From Candidatus Fermentibacterales bacterium (GTDB lineage Bacteria; Fermentibacterota; Fermentibacteria; Fermentibacterales; JAFGKQ01): 13,074 nt of DNA. Position numbers and translations under genes: made by a program. The notes under the pieces are model-generated. The model was not told the DNA's origin. It saw only the letters and a list, made by a program, of their open reading frames with translations, and did no database searches. The stretch spans positions 1 through 13,074 of the forward strand of contig JAFGKQ010000149.1 in NCBI GenBank assembly GCA_016928495.1, in the 5' to 3' direction. Below are positions 716 through 9,493 of the stretch, in pieces (position 1 is the first letter of the stretch; each line of letters starts with the position of its first letter).

Positions 716-1273
716 TCAGCAGCCCAGTATCCACTCAGCGGCCCGCGAGAGGTCGAGAGCGACATGATCGGGCTCCAGGCCCCCGCTAGACCGGATCAGG
801 AGGAGCTGCAAGCGTCCCCTTCCCGTCTGGACCAATACTGCCCTCAGGCCTGCCGCTCTGGCCATAGCCATGTCGGAGGCAGCGTCGCCTACCATGAACC
901 CGCCCCGGAGATCGATGGACAACTCGCTCGCAGCCCTCTCTATGAGGCCCGTGCGGGGCTTCCTGCACGCGCAGCCCTCGTCGGGATGATGTGGGCAGCA
1001 GTAGACCCCGGCAATCCTGCCTCCGAGTTCCGCCACTTCGGCGACCATCCTCTCGTGGATCCTGTCCACCTCATCGGATGTAGTAAGTCCCCTTGCGATG
1101 GCTGACTGGTTCGAGACGACGACGACGGGATGACCCGCTCGGGAAAGCCTGGCGATGGCCTGGAGGGAGCCGGCGATAGGGACCCACTGGCTCAGGCTTC
1201 TCACGTAGTCATCCCTGTTCTGGTTGATGACGCCGTCCCTGTCGAGAAAGACGGGCGGAGGGCGCCTGGTCAC
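716..1273 (-). CDS. gmhB: D-glycero-D-manno-heptose 1,7-bisphosphate 7-phosphatase (HAD family)
   Basis: The protein has 185 residues, the usual length for GmhB, a cytoplasmic HAD phosphatase that removes the 7-phosphate of heptose bisphosphate on the way to ADP-heptose for the LPS inner core. Visible HAD motifs are DRDGVIN with nucleophile D11 and acid/base D13, SNQS at 54-57, the lysine of CRKP (K105), and VGDAASD at 128-134. The structural zinc site typical of GmhB is present as C93-P-H95 and C101-A-C103, with a short loop between the two halves. I chose the GTG start at 1271-1273 because it overlaps the stop of the upstream epimerase gene as GTGA, and because the protein then begins just before the first HAD strand. 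A longer reading from 1420 only adds sequence antisense to nothing recognisable and buried in the epimerase gene. A related histidinol-phosphate phosphatase is the main alternative; the envelope-sugar context favours GmhB. Confidence 0.9.
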   Translation of the reverse strand: MTRRPPPVFLDRDGVINQNRDDYVRSLSQWVPIAGSLQAIARLSRAGHPVVVVSNQSAIARGLTTSDEVDRIHERMVAEVAELGGRIAGVYCCPHHPDEGCACRKPRTGLIERAASELSIDLRGGFMVGDAASDMAMARAAGLRAVLVQTGRGRLQLLLIRSSGGLEPDHVALDLSRAAEWILGC

Positions 1274-2208
1274 CGGGCGAGACCTTTCCGCAGGTGATCC
1301 ACCAGGTCGGCCAGGCCTTCCTCGAACGGGATCTCCGGCTTCCAGTCGAGGATCGCGGCGGCTTTGCCGGAGTCCAGGTATATCCGCCCGATCTCCTCGG
1401 GAAGGGCGGGACCGAAGCATGGCGTGACGGGTGTTCCGACCAGCTTCCTTATGATCTCGTCCAGTTCGAGCACGGAATGCCCCTCGCCCCAGCCGATGTT
1501 GAGCACGCTTGTTGACGCCCGGGCGTTGCCCGGATCGGCTGCGAGGAGGTTGGCCCTGGCTATGTCCCTCACGTGGACGTAGTCACGGAGTTGTGTCCCG
1601 TCACCGTTGATCCTGGGCTGACGGCCCTCGAGGTAGGCCATAGCGAAGATCGCCGTGACGCCCGCTTCGCCTCTCGGGTTCTGGCGCGGCCCGTAGACGT
1701 TGGGGTAGCGGAGCACGACGTAGTCGAGCCCGTAGAGGTGATGGTACAGGAACAGGTAGTGCTCCACCGTGTGCTTGCTTATTCCGTAGTGACAGATCGG
1801 GTTGATCGGATGCTCCTCGCGCACGGGAAGGCTCACCGGCTCGCCGTACACGGCGCCCCCGGTCGAGGCGTAGACCACTCTCTGGACGCCTCCTCTGCGA
1901 GCCGCCTCCAGCAGGTTCAGAGTCCCGCACACGTTGACGTCGGCATCGAACAACGGCTCCCGAACGGACCTCCGCACGTCCATCTGGGCCGCGTGATGGC
2001 TGATGACGTCGTAGCGGCCTTCCGCGACGAGCCTGGCGGCCTCTTCGCTGCGCAGGTCGAGCCTGTGGAAGCCCGCCGCGGGGTTCACGTTGTTCCTGAA
2101 GCCGGTGGAGAGATCATCCAGGACATCGACCGCGTGGCCCTTCTCGATGAAGGCATCTGCCACAGTCGAGCCGATGAAGCCGGCCCCTCCTGTAACGAGC
2201 ACTCGCAT
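1270..2208 (-). CDS. NAD-dependent sugar-nucleotide epimerase (GalE-like extended SDR)
   Basis: A 312-residue extended short-chain dehydrogenase, probably a UDP-hexose 4-epimerase or close relative supplying an activated sugar for surface glycans. The NAD-binding Rossmann motif GGAGFIG is at 7-13, with acidic D31-D32 at the end of the second strand, which favours NAD over NADP. The catalytic set is S115/T116 with Y141-x3-K145 (YGISK). RYPNVYGP at 168-175 and RDYVHVRD at 208-215 are substrate-side motifs of the GalE/WbpP-like group. Exact substrate cannot be read from sequence. Two adjacent ATG codons (2209-2211 and 2206-2208) could start it. The GGAGG at 2216-2220 is 4 bases from the first and 7 from the second, so I take the second; the difference is one Met. 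It is first in a leftward unit with gmhB, whose start overlaps its stop by 4 bases, and is divergent from ddl. Confidence 0.88.
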   Translation of the reverse strand: MRVLVTGGAGFIGSTVADAFIEKGHAVDVLDDLSTGFRNNVNPAAGFHRLDLRSEEAARLVAEGRYDVISHHAAQMDVRRSVREPLFDADVNVCGTLNLLEAARRGGVQRVVYASTGGAVYGEPVSLPVREEHPINPICHYGISKHTVEHYLFLYHHLYGLDYVVLRYPNVYGPRQNPRGEAGVTAIFAMAYLEGRQPRINGDGTQLRDYVHVRDIARANLLAADPGNARASTSVLNIGWGEGHSVLELDEIIRKLVGTPVTPCFGPALPEEIGRIYLDSGKAAAILDWKPEIPFEEGLADLVDHLRKGLAR

Positions 2209-2213
2209 CATTG

Positions 2214-2221
2214 CTCCTCCC
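2214..2221 (-). promoter_or_regulatory. Ribosome binding site of the epimerase gene
   Basis: On the minus strand the bases read GGGAGGAG, a strong Shine-Dalgarno match, followed by two tandem ATG codons. The 7-base spacing from GGAGG to the second ATG is closer to the usual optimum than the 4-base spacing to the first, which decided the start chosen for the epimerase. Confidence 0.7.
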
Positions 2222-2245
2222 GAGTGGGGACCGTGAAAGGTGTCC

Positions 2246-2280
2246 AGCAGCGCCACCGTGGTCAAGGGCGCAGCGCTGCT
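2246..2280. repeat. Perfect 8-base inverted repeat in the divergent promoter region
   Basis: The left arm AGCAGCGC (2246-2253) and right arm GCGCTGCT (2273-2280) are perfect reverse complements separated by 19 bases. The -35-like TTGACC of the minus strand lies between the arms. The position suits an operator shared by both units, or an RNA hairpin in the leader of one of them. Eight base pairs in GC-rich DNA can also arise by chance, so confidence in function is low. Confidence 0.3.
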
Positions 2281-2364
2281 CCCTCCCCGGGTCGTATGAC
2301 CGGCGTGGACAGCGGCAGGGAGTTTCGGCAATGTTGGCAGGAACACCGGAATGGAGCGGGGGTC

Positions 2365-3399
2365 ATGAGAGTCCTGCTGGCTTTCGGCGGCATCTCCGCC
2401 GAGAGGGAGATATCGATAGAGTCTGCCGGCTTCGTGAGGGATGCTCTGAGGTCTGCCGGCCACGAGGTCATCGACCTCGAGATCGGCGCTTCCGGCGAAT
2501 GGCTGGGCTGCGGAGGAGTCGAGTTGTCCCTGGATGCCGTCAGCCGCCCCTGGCGTCTTCTGGAAGCCCGAACCGGCAGAGCGATCCCGATGGACGTCGT
2601 GTTCCCGGTCCTGCATGGCCCCTTCGGCGAGGACGGGACGATACAGGGCCTCTGCGAGATCGCCGGCTGGCACTACGCCGGGACAGGGGTCATGACCTCG
2701 GCTCTGGCCATGGACAAGCTGGCCTGCAGGAAGATGCTGGAAGGTGCTGGATTCCCGCTGGCGCAATGGACATCGTGCGTGGGCCGGATGACCGGCGAGG
2801 AGCGCGCGGCCGTCCTCGATATGGGACTCCCGGTCTTCGTCAAGCCTTCGAGGTTGGGCTCGAGCGTCGGCATCTCGAGGGCCTCGACTCCCGAAGAGCT
2901 TGACGCGGCAGTATCTCTCGCCCTCGGTTACGACGAGAGGATCGTCATCGAGAAGGAGGTTTCCGAGGCCAGGGAGATCGAGGTGAGCGTACTGGGCGAT
3001 GGCGCATCCGTCTCCTCGTCCGTTCCCGGGGAGGTCCTGCCGGGCAGGCAGTGGTACGACTACGAGGCGAAGTATGCTTGCGCGGGCTCGAGGCTCGTGA
3101 TACCCGCAGCGCTCGATCCCGGCCTGACGGCGCGTGTCAGGAGCCTGGCGGAAGGGGCGTTCGATCTGATCGGGGGCATCAGGGGCTTCGCCAGGGTGGA
3201 CTTCCTGCTCTCGGCCGGGGACTCCCGGCTCTTTCTCAGCGAGATAAACACGATACCCGGATTCACTTCCATAAGCATGTTCCCCAAGCTATGGGAGGCT
3301 AGCGGAGTCCCGGCAGAGCAGCTCATGGACAGGATCCTGGCCGAAGCCGTCGGCAGACCCGGAAGAGGGCAGAGGAGAGAGCGGTCAGCATGTCAGTAA
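2365..3399 (+). CDS. ddl: D-alanine--D-alanine ligase
   Basis: A 344-residue ATP-grasp ligase that joins two D-alanines with ATP in the cytoplasm for peptidoglycan precursors; the length is slightly above the usual 300-320 or so. The N-terminal part has GGISAEREIS at 8-17 (E13 is the expected D-Ala1 contact) and HGPFGEDGTIQG at 84-95. The ATP-binding segment has VKPSRLGSSVGIS at 159-171. The loop YDYEAKY at 231-237 ends in K236-Y237; the tyrosine is typical of D-Ala-D-Ala rather than D-Ala-D-Lac enzymes. RVDF at 277-280 and E293-I-N295-T-I-P-G are the metal-binding C-terminal signature. I chose the ATG at 2365 because the family fold begins right there (MRVLLAFGG) and GGAG lies 8 bases upstream; the same frame is open far upstream but there it is antisense to the epimerase. 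It heads the rightward unit and overlaps ltaE by 10 bases. Confidence 0.95.
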   Translation: MRVLLAFGGISAEREISIESAGFVRDALRSAGHEVIDLEIGASGEWLGCGGVELSLDAVSRPWRLLEARTGRAIPMDVVFPVLHGPFGEDGTIQGLCEIAGWHYAGTGVMTSALAMDKLACRKMLEGAGFPLAQWTSCVGRMTGEERAAVLDMGLPVFVKPSRLGSSVGISRASTPEELDAAVSLALGYDERIVIEKEVSEAREIEVSVLGDGASVSSSVPGEVLPGRQWYDYEAKYACAGSRLVIPAALDPGLTARVRSLAEGAFDLIGGIRGFARVDFLLSAGDSRLFLSEINTIPGFTSISMFPKLWEASGVPAEQLMDRILAEAVGRPGRGQRRERSACQ

Positions 3400-4433
3400 G
3401 GCGTTTCAGAGTGGACCTTCGGAGCGATACCGTTACCGTGCCTTCCCATGGCATGAGGCAGGCCATGTCACACGCTCTGGTAGGCGACGACGTCTTCCGG
3501 GAGGATCCCACCGTCCGCGAGCTCGAGGCCAGGGTCGCCGAGATGCTCGGCAAGGAGAGCGGGCTCTTCATGGTCTCGGGGACCATGTCGAACGGCATAG
3601 CCCTGAGGGTGCTCGGAAAACCCGGGGACGAGATCATCTGTGGCCGGCATTCGCACATCTACTGCTACGAGGGCGGAGCCGCCGCCTTCATGGGCGGTAT
3701 GCAGTTGCACACGCTGTCGGAGAACGAGCACGGCCTCATCGAAGAGGATGAGCTGATGGCCGCGCTGGGAAGGCACGAGGATATCCACTTCGCGCCCAGG
3801 ACTGTCCTTGCTCTCGAGAACACGCACAACATCCGCGGGGGGCGAATCCTGCCCCCTGCAGCAGCGGCCAGGATCCTGAGCATAGGAGCCTCGGCCGGCC
3901 TGAGGGCATACCTCGACGGCGCGAGGCTATGGAACGCCGCCGTTTCACTGGAATGCGGCGTAGGCGAGCTGACCGGGGCCTATGACATGGTCTCGGTCTG
4001 TTTCTCCAAGGGCATGGGTTGCCCCATCGGGTCCGTGCTCGCCGGCTCGGGCGAGGACATGGATCGTGCGAGGTGGTTCAGGAAGAGGTACGGGGGAGGC
4101 ATGCGCCAGGTAGGCATAATCGCGGCCGCCTGCATATACGCCCTGGAGCACAACATCTCTCGTCTGGCGAAGACGCACGAGTACGCACGGAAGCTGGCAA
4201 GGGCCGCAAACTCCTCGCCCATCCTGTCCGCGGACCCTTCTTCGGTAGACACCAACATAGTCCTGGTCACCACTCCCGAGAGCACGGCCCCATCCGTGGT
4301 CAGGGCACTGGAAGAGCAGGGCATCGGGTGCTTCGCGACCGGCCCGTCGACGATAAGGCTCGTTACGCATCTCAGCCTTGGCGAGCGGGACGTGAAGTAC
4401 GCCGCCGACACGCTGGCGATGTTCGGGGCGTAG
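3390..4433 (+). CDS. ltaE: Low-specificity L-threonine / L-allo-threonine aldolase
   Basis: A 347-residue fold-type I PLP enzyme that splits L-threonine or L-allo-threonine into glycine and acetaldehyde. Family marks run through the chain: DLRSDTVT at 9-16, GDDVFREDPT at 32-41, SGTMSN at 63-68, a PLP-stacking histidine at H89 in HSHIYCYEGG, LENTHN at 142-147, YLDGARLWNA at 174-183 with D176, SVCFSKG at 202-208 with Schiff-base K207, RKRYGGGMRQ at 231-240, and substrate-carboxylate R323 in IRLVTHL. Every key residue I would look for is present. The ATG at 3390 lies inside the end of ddl, with AGGAG 12 bases upstream, a slightly long spacing. The gene sits between ddl and the lipid A cluster, where it is not normally expected. 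A role in glycine supply for envelope synthesis would be speculation. Confidence 0.93.
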   Translation: MSVRRFRVDLRSDTVTVPSHGMRQAMSHALVGDDVFREDPTVRELEARVAEMLGKESGLFMVSGTMSNGIALRVLGKPGDEIICGRHSHIYCYEGGAAAFMGGMQLHTLSENEHGLIEEDELMAALGRHEDIHFAPRTVLALENTHNIRGGRILPPAAAARILSIGASAGLRAYLDGARLWNAAVSLECGVGELTGAYDMVSVCFSKGMGCPIGSVLAGSGEDMDRARWFRKRYGGGMRQVGIIAAACIYALEHNISRLAKTHEYARKLARAANSSPILSADPSSVDTNIVLVTTPESTAPSVVRALEEQGIGCFATGPSTIRLVTHLSLGERDVKYAADTLAMFGA

Positions 4434-4436
4434 GGC

Positions 4437-5351
4437 ATGACGAGAGCGGGAGTCGTCGGAGTCGGCCACCTTGGCTTCCACCATGCGCGGATCCTCCGGA
4501 GCCTGGTCGACGAGGTCCGGGTTTGCGACACCAGGCCCGGGAGAGCCGCAGAGGTCTCCAGGGAGCTGGACGTGCGCTCCTCTCCGAGTCTGGATGCCAT
4601 CCTGGGGGAGTCCGATCTGATCGTGGCGGCCTGCACCACGAGCGCACACTACGATGTGGTTAGCTCCGCGCTCTCGGCGGGCCTCCCCGTCCTGGTGGAG
4701 AAGCCGATAGCCTCGACCCTCGACCAGGGCCAGCGGCTGGTGGGCATGGCGGAACGGGCCGGCCTTGTGCTGGCTGTCGGGCACGTCGAGCGCTTCAACC
4801 CAGCGATCACCGCGGCCGCCAGGCTCATCAAGGAGCCTATGTTCGTGGAGGGACACAGGTTGGCGCGCTTCCAGCCCAGGGGAACCGACGTGTCCGTGGT
4901 CATGGATCTCATGATCCACGACATAGACCTGGTTCTGTCCTTCGTCACTTCGGGCATCGCGGAGGTCCGGGCCTCGGGTCTTCCCGTGCTCTCGGAGAAG
5001 CACGACATAGTGAGCGCGAGGCTCTCTTTCCACAACGGCGCTGTCGTCAACATGACGGCAAGCAGGATCTCGAGGGAGCCCATGCGGAAGCTCCGGTTCT
5101 TCGAGTCCAACCGCTACGTCTCAGTGGACTTTGCAGCCAGGAAGGTCGAAGCCTACGCGCTGGTGAATGGTTCCATAAGCCAGCTTCCGACAGATGTACC
5201 CGAGCACGACGCGCTGGAGGAGGAGCTGAGGGATTTCCTGGCGGCCTGCCGTGGGGAGCGGGAGCCTGCGGTTCCCGGTCGCGCCGGTGTCAGAGCACTC
5301 GGCGCGGCAGAGGCGATCACGCGGGAGATCGAGAAGAGCAGCCGGGGCTGA
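4437..5351 (+). CDS. Gfo/Idh/MocA-family oxidoreductase of lipid A operon (GnnA-like candidate)
   Basis: A 304-residue NAD(P)-dependent dehydrogenase. The N-terminal Rossmann motif is GVGHLG at 8-13, followed by LVEKPIA at 86-92 with the family's catalytic lysine K89. The C-terminal half has GHVERFNPA at 115-123 and DLMIHDIDLVL at 157-167 with H161, both typical of Gfo/Idh sugar-nucleotide dehydrogenases. It starts 3 bases after ltaE, and its stop overlaps the start of lpxB as TGATG, so translation with lpxB is probably coupled. A Gfo/Idh gene immediately before lpxB is a recurring arrangement in lipid A operons. In some species this enzyme is GnnA, which oxidises the 3-OH of UDP-GlcNAc before transamination by GnnB. 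No GnnB-type aminotransferase is in this window, so assignment as GnnA is inference; the family call is secure. The ribosome site is weak, in keeping with coupling to ltaE. Confidence 0.88.
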   Translation: MTRAGVVGVGHLGFHHARILRSLVDEVRVCDTRPGRAAEVSRELDVRSSPSLDAILGESDLIVAACTTSAHYDVVSSALSAGLPVLVEKPIASTLDQGQRLVGMAERAGLVLAVGHVERFNPAITAAARLIKEPMFVEGHRLARFQPRGTDVSVVMDLMIHDIDLVLSFVTSGIAEVRASGLPVLSEKHDIVSARLSFHNGAVVNMTASRISREPMRKLRFFESNRYVSVDFAARKVEAYALVNGSISQLPTDVPEHDALEEELRDFLAACRGEREPAVPGRAGVRALGAAEAITREIEKSSRG

Positions 5352-6472
5352 TGAGCAGGCTGTTCGTGTGTGCCGGAGAGCCCTCCGGCGATGCAAGGGC
5401 GGCCGAGCTGATCCGCGAGCTCGGAGCCGTCCGTGACATCGAGGTAATGGGCTTCGGAGGCCCGGAGCTGGAGAGCAGTGGCGCCCGGCTCGTGGATCGG
5501 ATGTCCGGGTACGCGGTCATGGGCTTCTGGGAGGTCCTGGCCGGCCTTCCGGCGCTGGTCCGCCTCTACCGGAGGCTCCGCAGGTCCATCATCGAATGGG
5601 CCCCCGATGCCCTCGTGCTCGTCGACTATCCCGGCATGAACCTCAGACTGGCCAGGTGGGCCTCGAGAAGGGGCATACCGGTCGTCTACTACGTCTCGCC
5701 CCAGATCTGGGCCTGGGGCAGCGGCAGGGTCCGATCCGTTGCCAGGCACGTCACGCTGATGCTCACGCTCTTCCGCTTCGAGAAGGACTTCTACGATTCC
5801 CACGGAGCTAAGGCCGTGTGGGTGGGGCACCCGATCGTCGACGCTCTCCGGGAGCAGAGCTGGCCCCCCTCTGAAGAGCCTGTCCCGCAAAGGCTGGCCA
5901 TCCTGCCCGGGAGCCGGGCTCAGGAGGTTCGACGCAACCTCCCGGTGATGCTGGATGCCCTCAGGATCCTTCTGGAGGGGGGAGTGGTATCCGAAGCGTC
6001 CCTGTCCGTCCACACAGGCCTGGATCCCGCTCTCTACGACTCCGCGGGGGAGTTCCCGTGCCTCACCAGGACCTTCTCGGTGCCAGATGCGCTCCGGGGG
6101 GCGTCCGCAGCCGCAGTCTGCTCCGGCACGGCGACCCTCGAGACGGCCTTGCGCGGAGTGCCGCTCGTGGTGGTCTACAGGACCTCGCCCGTGACCTACC
6201 TCCTGGCCAGGCTTCTCGTCAGGGGCGTCAGGCAGATAGCCCTCGCCAACCTGGTGACCGGTTCCGCCTCGATACCGGAGCTGATACAAGGGAAGGCAAC
6301 GGGGCCGGCGATCGCTCTTGCGCTGGAACAGCTCATCAGAAGCGATGTTCAGGAACGCAGCACACTCGCGTCGAAGCTGGCCGGCGTTCGCGAGGCTCTG
6401 GGCCCGCCCGGGGCGGCGGCGAGGGCAGCGGCGGAGGTAGACCGGCTGCTCGGGGCTTCGGGTGATGCCTGA
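5351..6472 (+). CDS. lpxB: Lipid-A-disaccharide synthase
   Basis: A 373-residue GT19 glycosyltransferase, close to the usual 380 or so, that joins UDP-2,3-diacylglucosamine to lipid X at the inner face of the inner membrane to form the lipid A disaccharide. Signature blocks occur in order: CAGEPSGD at 7-14, VDYPGMNLRLA at 91-101 with the important D92, YYVSPQIWAWGSGR at 113-126, VGHPIVD at 158-164, LPGSR at 185-189, SGTATLE at 258-264, and VVVYR with a later PELIQ at 309-313. The ATG at 5351 overlaps the oxidoreductase stop by one base and gives a protein that starts directly at the first Rossmann strand. Its 3' end overlaps the next gene by 8 bases. This is one of the clearest identifications in the window and anchors the operon as lipid A synthesis. 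Confidence 0.97.
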   Translation: MSRLFVCAGEPSGDARAAELIRELGAVRDIEVMGFGGPELESSGARLVDRMSGYAVMGFWEVLAGLPALVRLYRRLRRSIIEWAPDALVLVDYPGMNLRLARWASRRGIPVVYYVSPQIWAWGSGRVRSVARHVTLMLTLFRFEKDFYDSHGAKAVWVGHPIVDALREQSWPPSEEPVPQRLAILPGSRAQEVRRNLPVMLDALRILLEGGVVSEASLSVHTGLDPALYDSAGEFPCLTRTFSVPDALRGASAAAVCSGTATLETALRGVPLVVVYRTSPVTYLLARLLVRGVRQIALANLVTGSASIPELIQGKATGPAIALALEQLIRSDVQERSTLASKLAGVREALGPPGAAARAAAEVDRLLGASGDA

Positions 6473-8357
6473 CCTCCTCGCACTCTCGCGAGGGGCGGGC
6501 AGGGTCCTGGTGAGCCTCCTGGGCAGGAGCTGGAGGGTGCTCTACATCCGTCCTTCCTCGACCGGGAGATCGGGGCGGGCTCGGGGCAGGCCCGTCCTGT
6601 TCGGTTGCTGGCACGGTCGTCAGCTTCCTTTCATACACACTCACCGGGGCGAGGGCGTGGCCGTCATGGTCAGCCGCCACAGGGACGGCCAGTATGTGGC
6701 TAACGTTCTGGAGTCCATGGGATTCGGTACTGTGAGAGGATCCAGCAGCAGGGGAGGTCTGCAGGCCCTGAGGGGAATGTCCGCTCTCCTCAGGAGCGGT
6801 GTCGATGGCGCGGTGACCCCCGATGGCCCCAGGGGGCCGGCGGAGAAGGCCGGCGAGGGTCTGGGCTTCATCTCCATGCTGGGGGGGCGCCCTTTCGTTC
6901 CCATGGGCGCGGCAGGATGGCCGGCAATAAGCTTCCGCTCATGGGACAGCTTCGTCCTGCCCCTTCCGGCTTCCAGGGTCGCCATCGTCGAGGGCAGGCC
7001 GATACCGCCCGTCCCCGCAGGGTCTTCAGACGGGATCAGAGAGGCCCGACTCGAGCTGATGGAATCCGAGATCAGAAGGGTAACCGCGCTGGCCGACTTC
7101 GTCGTCTCTCCGAGCGCCAGGATCCTCTATGCCTGTGCCAGGCTTCTCTCCTGCCTGGCGTCCCCGGTGGCCCGTGCGGCTCTGGTCGTGCTGGCGAGGG
7201 GCAGGGAGCGCAGGGAGCGCCTGGGCCTCCCGCAGTACAGGTCGGATCGCCCGGTGTGGCTTCACGGAGCGTCGCTGGGAGAGGTTCGCGGCTTGCTCCC
7301 CGTTGCCGGCATGCTCTCGAGGGGGGGGCTCCCCGTGCATGTCACATGCACGTCGCGGTCGGCCAGGGCCCTCATCGAGGACAGGGGCTACAGGGGCAGC
7401 CTGGCCCCACTCGACAGCGTGGGCTGCGTGCGCAGCTTCCTCCGGAGCGTGAGACCGAGGATGCTGGTGCTGGCCGAGACCGAGCTCTGGCCGTGTACCC
7501 TGACCGAGACGCTGCTCTCCGGTGTTCCAGCCATCATGGTCAACGCGAGGCTCTCTGAACGGCGGATGCCTTCCTACAGGGTGCTCTCGGGCTTCCTGGG
7601 CAGGCTGCTCTCCTGCTTCTGCGCGGTTCTCTGCCGGACACCGGCAGACCTCGAGAGGTTCGCGGAGCTGGGCGTCGATCGTCGCTGCCTGATGCTGGCG
7701 CCGGACACCAAGGCTGCCTCCGAGCCCGAGAAGCCTCCATCGAGCTGGAGGAAGTCCCTTTCCGTCGGAGGCAGGCGGGTTCTGGTCGCCGGCTCCACAA
7801 GGCCCGGTGAGGAGCTGCCCGTGGTGGCCGCAGCCCTGGATGCGGGCCTCTTCCCGGTCATCGCGCCGCGCCACGTCGAGAGGGCAGAGCAGATCACCAG
7901 GCAGCTCCGGGAGGATCTCGGAGCGGACGTGGCGAGATGGAGCGTTTCCGGCGCCGACCCCGGGGGTTCGGATTGCCTGCTGGTCGATGTTCATGGTGTC
8001 CTGGGGGCGCTCTACGGAGCGGCGGACGTCGCCTTCGTGGGCGGGACGATCGCGCCCATCGGAGGACACAACGTCCTCGAACCCCTGCAGCACGGCGTTC
8101 CGGTGGTCGTCGGGCCTCATCATCAGAGCTTCGCGTCGGAGACCGCGACCATGGTCGAGAGGGGCTGGGCTCTGATCTCGTCGAGCAGGGAGGAGCTCAG
8201 CGAGGCCTTCTCGAGGCTCGCCGACTCTAGACCGGACGCGGCGGCGATCCATATCTACCTCGCAGGGTTGGCGTCGGACGGCCTGGCCAGGCTCCAGGAG
8301 ATGATCTCGAGAGCATGCGGCACCTGCCGGGTCCCGTCCGCGAGGGGCAGCCGATGA
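6465..8357 (+). CDS. Fused LpxJ-type (DUF374) acyltransferase and 3-deoxy-D-manno-octulosonic acid transferase
   Basis: One unbroken frame of 630 residues joins two proteins that are usually separate. Residues 1-215 are a DUF374/LPLAT acyltransferase: CWHGRQLP at 48-55 with the likely catalytic H50, VSRHRDGQ at 69-76, VRGSSSRGG at 90-98 and TPDGPRGP at 118-125. Residues 218-630 are a complete KdtA/WaaA (GT30): a hydrophobic membrane-associated stretch at about 219-244, HGASLGE at 267-273 with probable catalytic base E273, ETELWP at 338-343, NARLSER at 360-366, GSTRPGEE at 443-450 and GGHNVLEPLQHGVP at 533-546. The family includes LpxJ, a lipid A secondary acyltransferase. KdtA adds Kdo from CMP-Kdo to lipid IVA at the inner membrane. 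I use the ATG at 6465; a GTG at 6462 would add one residue. No stop or good ribosome site lies at the domain border (about 7080-7140). It overlaps lpxB by 8 and lpxK by 4 bases. Substrate and Kdo number are unknown. Confidence 0.93.
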   Translation: MPDLLALSRGAGRVLVSLLGRSWRVLYIRPSSTGRSGRARGRPVLFGCWHGRQLPFIHTHRGEGVAVMVSRHRDGQYVANVLESMGFGTVRGSSSRGGLQALRGMSALLRSGVDGAVTPDGPRGPAEKAGEGLGFISMLGGRPFVPMGAAGWPAISFRSWDSFVLPLPASRVAIVEGRPIPPVPAGSSDGIREARLELMESEIRRVTALADFVVSPSARILYACARLLSCLASPVARAALVVLARGRERRERLGLPQYRSDRPVWLHGASLGEVRGLLPVAGMLSRGGLPVHVTCTSRSARALIEDRGYRGSLAPLDSVGCVRSFLRSVRPRMLVLAETELWPCTLTETLLSGVPAIMVNARLSERRMPSYRVLSGFLGRLLSCFCAVLCRTPADLERFAELGVDRRCLMLAPDTKAASEPEKPPSSWRKSLSVGGRRVLVAGSTRPGEELPVVAAALDAGLFPVIAPRHVERAEQITRQLREDLGADVARWSVSGADPGGSDCLLVDVHGVLGALYGAADVAFVGGTIAPIGGHNVLEPLQHGVPVVVGPHHQSFASETATMVERGWALISSSREELSEAFSRLADSRPDAAAIHIYLAGLASDGLARLQEMISRACGTCRVPSARGSR

Positions 8358-9493
8358 TTCCCGGGCTCCGGAGGGGGCTGTTCACGCTGTGGAGGAACAC
8401 GGCGGAGCGCAGGAGCATGCTGCACATCTTACTTGCGGTGCTCCTCCGGCCCGCGGCCCTGCTCTACAGGGGTCTTGCGGCTCTCAACCGTCTGTCCTAC
8501 GAGAGCGGGCTCCGCAGGAGGGTCAGGGTTCCTGCGGCAGTGGTCTCCGTGGGCAATATCGAGGTCGGTGGCGTCGGCAAGACTCCCGTGGTCATCTGGA
8601 TGGCGCGGCGGCTCTCTGAGCGCGGCCTTAGCGTCGCAGTCGTGGTCCGCAACCAGAGATCCGGCCCCGGGTGCGGGAGAGAGGCCGTTCCCGCCGACAG
8701 GGTGATCTCGGTCGCGAGGCGGAGCAGTGCCGGCTCGATGTTCAGCGACGAGGTGCTGCTGCTCGTCCAGAGCCTGCCGGGAATCAGCGTGTACGCCGGC
8801 AAGAGCAAGTCAAAGGCTGCGGTCAGGGCATGTCGGGAGGTTTCTCCCGACCTGGTTCTGGTGGACGACGGCTTCCAGCACCATGGGTTGCAGAAGGACA
8901 TGGAGATAGTCCTCGTCGACTTCGAACGCCCCTTCGGGAGCGGGGGGCTGCTTCCGTCCGGTAGCCTGCGAGAGCCTCCGTGCGTGCTCTCCAGGGCTGA
9001 CTGCTTCTGGGCCCACAGGCGTGGACAGGGGAGGAGCGAGGATTGGCTCAGGACACGGCTGGATGACTACAACTGGAGAGCTCCTCTGGTTTGCAGCAAC
9101 CTGATACCAGGGATGCTGAGACTGGCCGGGGACGATGATTCCGAGATCGATCCCGACGGTGTCTCCGTGGTTGCCTTCTGCGGCATAGGCAAGCCCTGGA
9201 GCTTCAGGAGGACCCTCGAGGCCGCCGGTTGCAGGGTGCTTGGCTTCATGGAGTTTCCCGATCATCATCGCTACGGAGCCGCGGACCTCGAGCGGCTGGA
9301 CAAGCTCCGCAAGGCCAGGGGCGCCGAGGCGCTGGTGACGACCACCAAGGACGTGGTGAAGATCGAGAGGCTGGCGGAGAGCCACCTGCTCTACTACCTC
9401 GATACCTCCCTGGCGGTCAGCAGCGAGGCGGAGCAGCTGCTCAGCAGCATCCACGGGCTCGTCAGCACCGGAAGGGGCTACCAGCGTGTCTGA
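8354..9493 (+). CDS. lpxK: Tetraacyldisaccharide 4'-kinase
   Basis: A 379-residue inner-membrane kinase that phosphorylates the 4' position of the lipid A disaccharide. It is longer than the common 320-350, with extra N-terminal residues before the membrane helix at about 23-45. The P-loop reads SVGNIEVGGVGKTP at 65-78, the second motif VDDGFQHH at 170-177, and FPDHHRY at 301-307 supplies the conserved histidine. The segment usually written SRGYG after the third strand is here VVRNQRSG (97-104), and the usual GDEP is S131-D132-E133, keeping the acidic pair but losing neighbours. I chose ATG 8354 because it overlaps the KdtA stop as ATGA and follows AGGGG by 7 bases; an earlier in-frame ATG at 8315 would overlap kdtA by 43 bases, and one at 8417 would leave 358 residues. 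It is followed by nadB with an 8-base overlap. Confidence 0.94.
   Translation: MIPGLRRGLFTLWRNTAERRSMLHILLAVLLRPAALLYRGLAALNRLSYESGLRRRVRVPAAVVSVGNIEVGGVGKTPVVIWMARRLSERGLSVAVVVRNQRSGPGCGREAVPADRVISVARRSSAGSMFSDEVLLLVQSLPGISVYAGKSKSKAAVRACREVSPDLVLVDDGFQHHGLQKDMEIVLVDFERPFGSGGLLPSGSLREPPCVLSRADCFWAHRRGQGRSEDWLRTRLDDYNWRAPLVCSNLIPGMLRLAGDDDSEIDPDGVSVVAFCGIGKPWSFRRTLEAAGCRVLGFMEFPDHHRYGAADLERLDKLRKARGAEALVTTTKDVVKIERLAESHLLYYLDTSLAVSSEAEQLLSSIHGLVSTGRGYQRV

Follow-up and report, generated by a model that had tools for sequence, protein, structure and literature searches.

The window analysed here, a stretch of 13,074 nucleotides from the genome of a Candidatus Fermentibacterales bacterium, holds one long open frame in which the motifs of an LpxJ-type acyltransferase are followed by those of the Kdo transferase KdtA (WaaA). 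Are the two genes truly fused, and if so, could a single protein carry out two steps in the building of lipid A? We find that the fusion is real and conserved, yet joins two known, normally neighbouring enzymes, and we consider below what it might do.

Results

One frame carries two enzyme domains of lipid A synthesis

The fused gene occupies positions 6465-8357 of the forward strand, starting with an ATG at 6465 (a GTG at 6462 is a possible alternative), and its reading frame of 630 amino acids contains no internal stop and has both Pfam and NCBIfam matches. An earlier note, made from the letters alone, had given these coordinates together with eight motifs, and all eight are present. The N-terminal acyltransferase domain (residues 1-188; 6465-7028, forward strand) carries the DUF374 core (PF04028) at residues 60-126, where a Pfam profile search returns 96.6 bits against a cut-off of 26.8, so that the N-terminal part falls in the family to which the earlier note had assigned it. 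It is followed by a border of two helices (residues 189-214 and 216-243; 7029-7193, forward strand), delimited from an AlphaFold2 model, the spacing in 33 sequences and dN/dS, and then by a GT-B glycosyltransferase domain of the KdtA/WaaA type (residues 244-630; 7194-8354, forward strand). In this last domain Glycos_transf_N (PF04413) matches residues 249-417 with 128.6 bits against a cut-off of 23.9, and the KdtA part aligns by sequence with Aquifex WaaA (2xci) at an E value of 3e-23.

The NCBIfam models for KdtA cover residues 216 or 227 to 595, with E values down to 1.8e-58, but the best score (198 bits) misses the equivalog cut-off of 438. Fusions from Acetobacter pasteurianus and from Elusimicrobia, described below, likewise stay under their NCBIfam cut-offs; that all three do so points to divergence from narrow models rather than to non-membership. 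Judged by sequence and by the residue comparisons that follow, the fused protein is a member of both DUF374 and KdtA. From the same comparisons, the KdtA half is predicted to have specific Kdo transferase activity, and the DUF374 half an LpxJ-type activity at the 3' position.

Both sets of catalytic residues are retained

In LpxJ of Rickettsia typhi (LpxJ-Rt), mutating W60, H61, D86, D132, W172 or D173 abolished function (PMC6148475). The equivalent residues in the window protein, W49, H50, D74, D120, W160 and D161, are invariant in 24 of 24 fused proteins, and their spacing is closely similar (H50 to D74, 24 residues against 25 in LpxJ-Rt; D74 to D120, 46 in both; D120 to W160, 40 in both). 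H84 of LpxJ-Rt, which is dispensable, corresponds to H72 here, and H72 is not conserved. The HX4D/E motif of PlsC-like glycerolipid acyltransferases is absent, H50 being followed by GRQLP with no acidic residue at +5; lack of an HX4D motif is expected for LpxJ (PMC6148475). The fused domain thus resembles LpxJ, the late acyltransferase of Helicobacter, Campylobacter, Wolinella and Rickettsia, in its family, its invariant catalytic H and D, its essential W and D, their spacing and the missing HX4D motif. Known LpxJ proteins, however, stand alone, whereas the DUF374 domain of the window is the N-terminal half of a fusion, and both its activity and the position that it acylates are predicted. The fold of this domain is assigned from the Pfam match and these residues.

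For the KdtA half we took the roles of the key residues of Aquifex WaaA from published work (PMC6286764). S28, G30, E31, E98 and W102 of the Aquifex enzyme correspond to S270, G272, E273, E338 and W342, and K162, R212, N273 and E276 to K416, R469, N536 and E539, all of them invariant in the 24 fused proteins; among these are the catalytic base (E31) and the CMP-binding residues (R212, N273 and E276). The WaaA of Aquifex aeolicus (2xci/2xcu) and that of E. coli also share with the fused KdtA the GT-B fold and an N-terminal hydrophobic helix. The fused protein differs in that this helix continues from the acyltransferase domain and in that the equivalent of R56 is S299, the position being occupied by residues other than Arg across the clade. 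Binding of the 1-phosphate by R56 of WaaA is itself a proposal (PMC6286764), and its loss is therefore not a family-defining failure.

The fusion is not an artefact of sequencing

The metagenome assembly behind the window is fragmented (337 contigs), which might lead one to suspect that an error had joined two adjacent genes. The order is represented by 42 genomes, however, and 39 of them share this stop-free, one-frame fusion. In two of the remaining three (G002 and G031) the gene is split by contig ends and in the third (G025) the frame changes within KdtA, near query residue 390; none is broken at the domain border, where the earlier note had proposed to look in related genomes for a stop or frameshift separating two genes. 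The border also lacks any homopolymer run of six or more, as that note had stated, and the runs of 7 G (at 6881) and 8 G (at 7321) lie inside the domains, with the frame continuous and conserved in relatives. Given, in addition, the independent fusions in the sequenced isolates A. pasteurianus LMG 1262 and Gluconacetobacter liquefaciens DSM 5603, sequencing or assembly error is ruled out, and we attach practically no weight to it. The earlier reading of a natural fusion joining an LpxJ-family acyltransferase to KdtA is thereby upheld, although the fusion is no one-off: it is fixed across Fermentibacterota and has arisen independently elsewhere.

Selection points the same way. Typical close pairs give dN/dS values of about 0.2 for DUF374, about 0.25 for the border and about 0.19 for KdtA, and no gap interrupts the border (77 codons) in the pairs compared; such low values indicate that purifying selection maintains both halves as well as the join.

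The border is helical and nearly constant in length

We modelled the window protein with AlphaFold2 on an alignment of the 24 fused proteins, obtaining two domains with a helical border (mean pLDDT 89.2, pTM 0.87). The C-terminal helix of DUF374 (residues 189-214) is nearly continuous with the N-terminal helix of KdtA (216-243), with block pLDDT of about 89-94 across the border. By fold the model matches 2xci with an E value of 1.2e-21, a Z score of 23.7 and an rmsd of 6.2 over 344 residues; the fold search returned matches on the KdtA side only, because the KdtA domain fills the match list. Helix 216-243 is the retained N-terminal hydrophobic helix of KdtA, and its hydrophobicity is much the same in fused and unfused proteins (median Kyte-Doolittle value 1.41 and 1.22, respectively, with overlapping ranges). 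Both enzymes must face the cytoplasm, and we infer from this that a helix lying in the membrane surface fits better than one crossing the membrane.

Some border sequences contain in-frame ATG codons, and one could imagine that the frame yields two proteins, through an internal start or through proteolysis at the border. Among 33 sequences, though, there is no conserved in-frame internal start with a ribosome-binding site at the border, on which ground we reject an internal start as the source of a separate KdtA, and the single ATG at the border of the window, 67 residues before the KdtA motif, has no Shine-Dalgarno sequence. Between the conserved SWD in the acyltransferase and the catalytic motif of KdtA, moreover, the distance is nearly constant (94-108 residues in the 33 sequences), and the border is under purifying selection, as noted above. 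We therefore think it very unlikely that two proteins are made.

The fusion sits between lpxB and lpxK

The genes on either side belong to the same pathway. lpxB (5351-6472, forward strand; TIGR00215, 214 bits, over the cut-off) ends with a TGA at 6470-6472, its last 8 bases being shared with the fused gene. lpxK (8354-9493, forward strand; TIGR00682, 201.8 bits, over the cut-off) begins with an ATG at 8354, and its first 4 bases (ATGA) are shared with the end of the fused gene (stop TGA, 8355-8357). In Fermentibacterota lpxK lies 3' of the fusion at 32 of the 32 loci read and lpxB lies 5' at 31 of the 32, the exception being a contig that starts within the fused gene. The genome of the window, whose assembly is 81% complete, contains no second KdtA or DUF374 protein that we could find. 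It also has, on another contig (C241), the full kdsB, kdsA, kdsC and kdsD set for the supply of CMP-Kdo, adjacent to one another at positions 865-3851 (forward strand) of locus L162, and it encodes two proteins of the LpxL family. These would be available for other acylations, so the DUF374 domain need not be a replacement for LpxM.

Further upstream in the window, immediately 5' of lpxB, a gene at 4437-5351 (forward strand) encodes a Gfo/Idh/MocA oxidoreductase whose best NCBIfam match, below the cut-off, is UDP-GlcNAc 3-dehydrogenase; the enzyme may perform a GnnA-like step on the way to lipid A with a diamino-sugar backbone. The gene for a PLP-dependent aldolase of the GntG/threonine aldolase type (3390-4433, forward strand) stands between one for a D-Ala-D-Ala ligase and those of lipid A synthesis.

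Fusions have arisen more than once

The named relatives of the window protein belong to Candidatus Fermentibacteraceae and Candidatus Aegiribacteria, which places the genome in Fermentibacterota. Among 385 genomes sampled, a stop-free fusion outside the order occurs in one genome only (G110), and 11 further genomes outside the order have both domains in one match with at least one stop between them. The best related loci of named genomes add fusions from Asaia platycodi, A. pasteurianus, Acetobacter pomorum, G. liquefaciens, Gluconobacter wancherniae, one Elusimicrobia MAG and one uncultured bacterium, and a further family has members with a fusion (G110 and G398). At most other best related loci of named genomes DUF374 lies directly 5' of kdtA; in very many genomes the two are immediate neighbours in this order, often in the same frame with just a stop between them, and the frequent adjacency that the earlier note had mentioned is thus seen in many other bacteria. 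A stop-free fusion is present in 19 of the 150 genomes of the family to which A. pasteurianus belongs, and in all five isolate genomes of acetic acid bacteria that we examined the fusion is the only full-length copy.

A tree of KdtA groups the Fermentibacterota fusions in one clade with full support and those of the acetic acid bacteria in another, with six changes needed under parsimony. At least three origins are reasonably supported (Fermentibacterota, the acetic acid bacteria, and G110 in its own family), whereas the cases known from single genomes (L055, L062 and G398) could include sequencing errors. The fusions arose from adjacent genes in matching order. Those of the acetic acid bacteria (Acetobacter, Gluconobacter, Gluconacetobacter and Asaia) have the same domain order and single frame as that of the window and, besides their separate origin, differ in sharing about 26% identity with the window protein and in having a longer, poorly predicted linker. 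The model of the A. pasteurianus fusion has a pLDDT of 83.3 and a pTM of 0.60, with low confidence at residues 250-258, and was built on a shallower alignment than that of the window; a fixed or rigid geometry is thus not shown as a general property, and the model suggests that the Acetobacter linker is probably flexible.

In the family of G110, DUF374 and KdtA of three loci (L133, L134 and L136) are in the same frame with one TGA between them, as if one codon short of fusion, and relatives nearby are truly fused.

Discussion

We think it likely, from the sequence comparisons, that the fused gene encodes one bifunctional inner-membrane enzyme, from which a single lipid IVA-type precursor receives both Kdo and a secondary acyl chain. 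Such an enzyme would lie at the inner membrane on its cytoplasmic side, and its substrate would be the tetra-acylated precursor that LpxB and LpxK, encoded to either side of the fusion, produce. The secondary acyl chain, probably supplied by acyl-ACP, would be attached by the DUF374/LpxJ domain to the hydroxyl of one of the primary 3-hydroxyacyl chains; analogy with LpxJ makes the 3' position the likeliest. The GT-B domain would use CMP-Kdo to place Kdo on the 6' hydroxyl of this molecule. Characterised LpxJ enzymes, among them the epsilonproteobacterial ones, have no requirement for Kdo (PMC6286764, PMC6148475), in agreement with what the earlier note had stated, and KdtA accepts differing acylation states (PMC6286764), so that the two steps could occur in either order. 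Both activities would then be directed to one substrate pool, with the enzymes at 1:1 levels. The uninterrupted frame, its conservation across the clade, the two sets of catalytic residues, purifying selection, the fact that these are the only copies detected, and the kdsB-A-C-D cluster all favour a bifunctional enzyme, while the loss of the R56 equivalent (S299), the missed NCBIfam KdtA cut-offs, the two LpxL-family proteins and the pTM of 0.60 for Acetobacter count against it.

It is a separate matter whether the cell gains anything from having the two activities in one chain. The fusion may go back to two overlapping, co-transcribed genes in the same orientation that lost the stop separating them, and the change may have been neutral, with the domains acting independently and without channelling or coupling; the chemistry would be as in the bifunctional enzyme, and only the benefit of fusion is in dispute. 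We give this an even chance. DUF374 lies directly 5' of kdtA in very many genomes, often one in-frame stop away; repeated fusions out of this gene order have occurred; DUF374 has also become joined to LpxK and to GT9, and the Acetobacter linker looks flexible. Retention in 39 of 42 genomes, the near-constant spacing and the confidently predicted helical join exceed what bare neutrality would lead one to expect, although ancient inheritance alone could suffice to explain them. Functional coupling and a neutral product of gene adjacency therefore appear to us about equally probable. A stronger proposal, that the Fermentibacterota fusion is an obligate, rigid two-headed enzyme performing Kdo transfer and secondary acylation on one bound precursor, in place of the E. 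coli logic in which Kdo precedes late acylation, strikes us as improbable.

A different doubt concerns the acceptor. With a Kdo transferase in the KdtA half, the acylation catalysed by the DUF374 half might be directed elsewhere, to another acceptor or position such as the 2' chain or a Kdo-bearing or sugar-modified lipid A. DUF374 is a broad family with few characterised members, LpxJ enzymes vary in substrate preference (PMC6286764), the position is not given by sequence alone, and the genome has LpxL-family enzymes. Yet every residue shown to be essential for LpxJ is invariant here, and the place of the gene in the operon between lpxB and lpxK fits lipid A. An acceptor or position other than the one proposed is thus a possibility to which we attach a minor share of the probability.

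Few members of the LpxJ family have been characterised, and the fusion connects this family with Kdo transfer as firmly as genome data allow; the architecture of one lipid A enzyme also sets apart an entire group of bacteria. In A. pasteurianus the lipid A is substituted with Ko and has six acyl chains (PMC8036547), and, with the same fusion present in cultured, harmless acetic acid bacteria of known lipid A, any coupling between late acylation and Kdo transfer is directly testable. We found no published description of a DUF374-KdtA fusion among the open-licence papers searched, which does not prove that there is none; the isolate fusion proteins must already be in sequence databases. A fusion of LpxC with FabZ is known from Bacteroidetes, Chlorobi and Verrucomicrobia (PMC3087551) and also joins neighbouring genes of the lipid A pathway, but it involves different enzymes and a different step.

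DUF374 itself fuses repeatedly to enzymes of lipid A and core synthesis. Long DUF374 frames in five genomes (G373, G248, G102, G092 and G126) proved to be high-GC read-through 5' of an ordinary DUF374 gene and are not fusions. In two genomes of different families DUF374 is N-terminal to LpxK in one frame (L033, 250-1977, reverse strand, 576 aa; L037, 368-2311, reverse strand, 648 aa). In three small genomes of one family it is followed in one frame by a heptosyltransferase-like GT9 domain (L034, 1548-3242; L036, 1433-3097; L041, 1494-3164; all on the forward strand), an arrangement confirmed with Pfam for L034 and L041.
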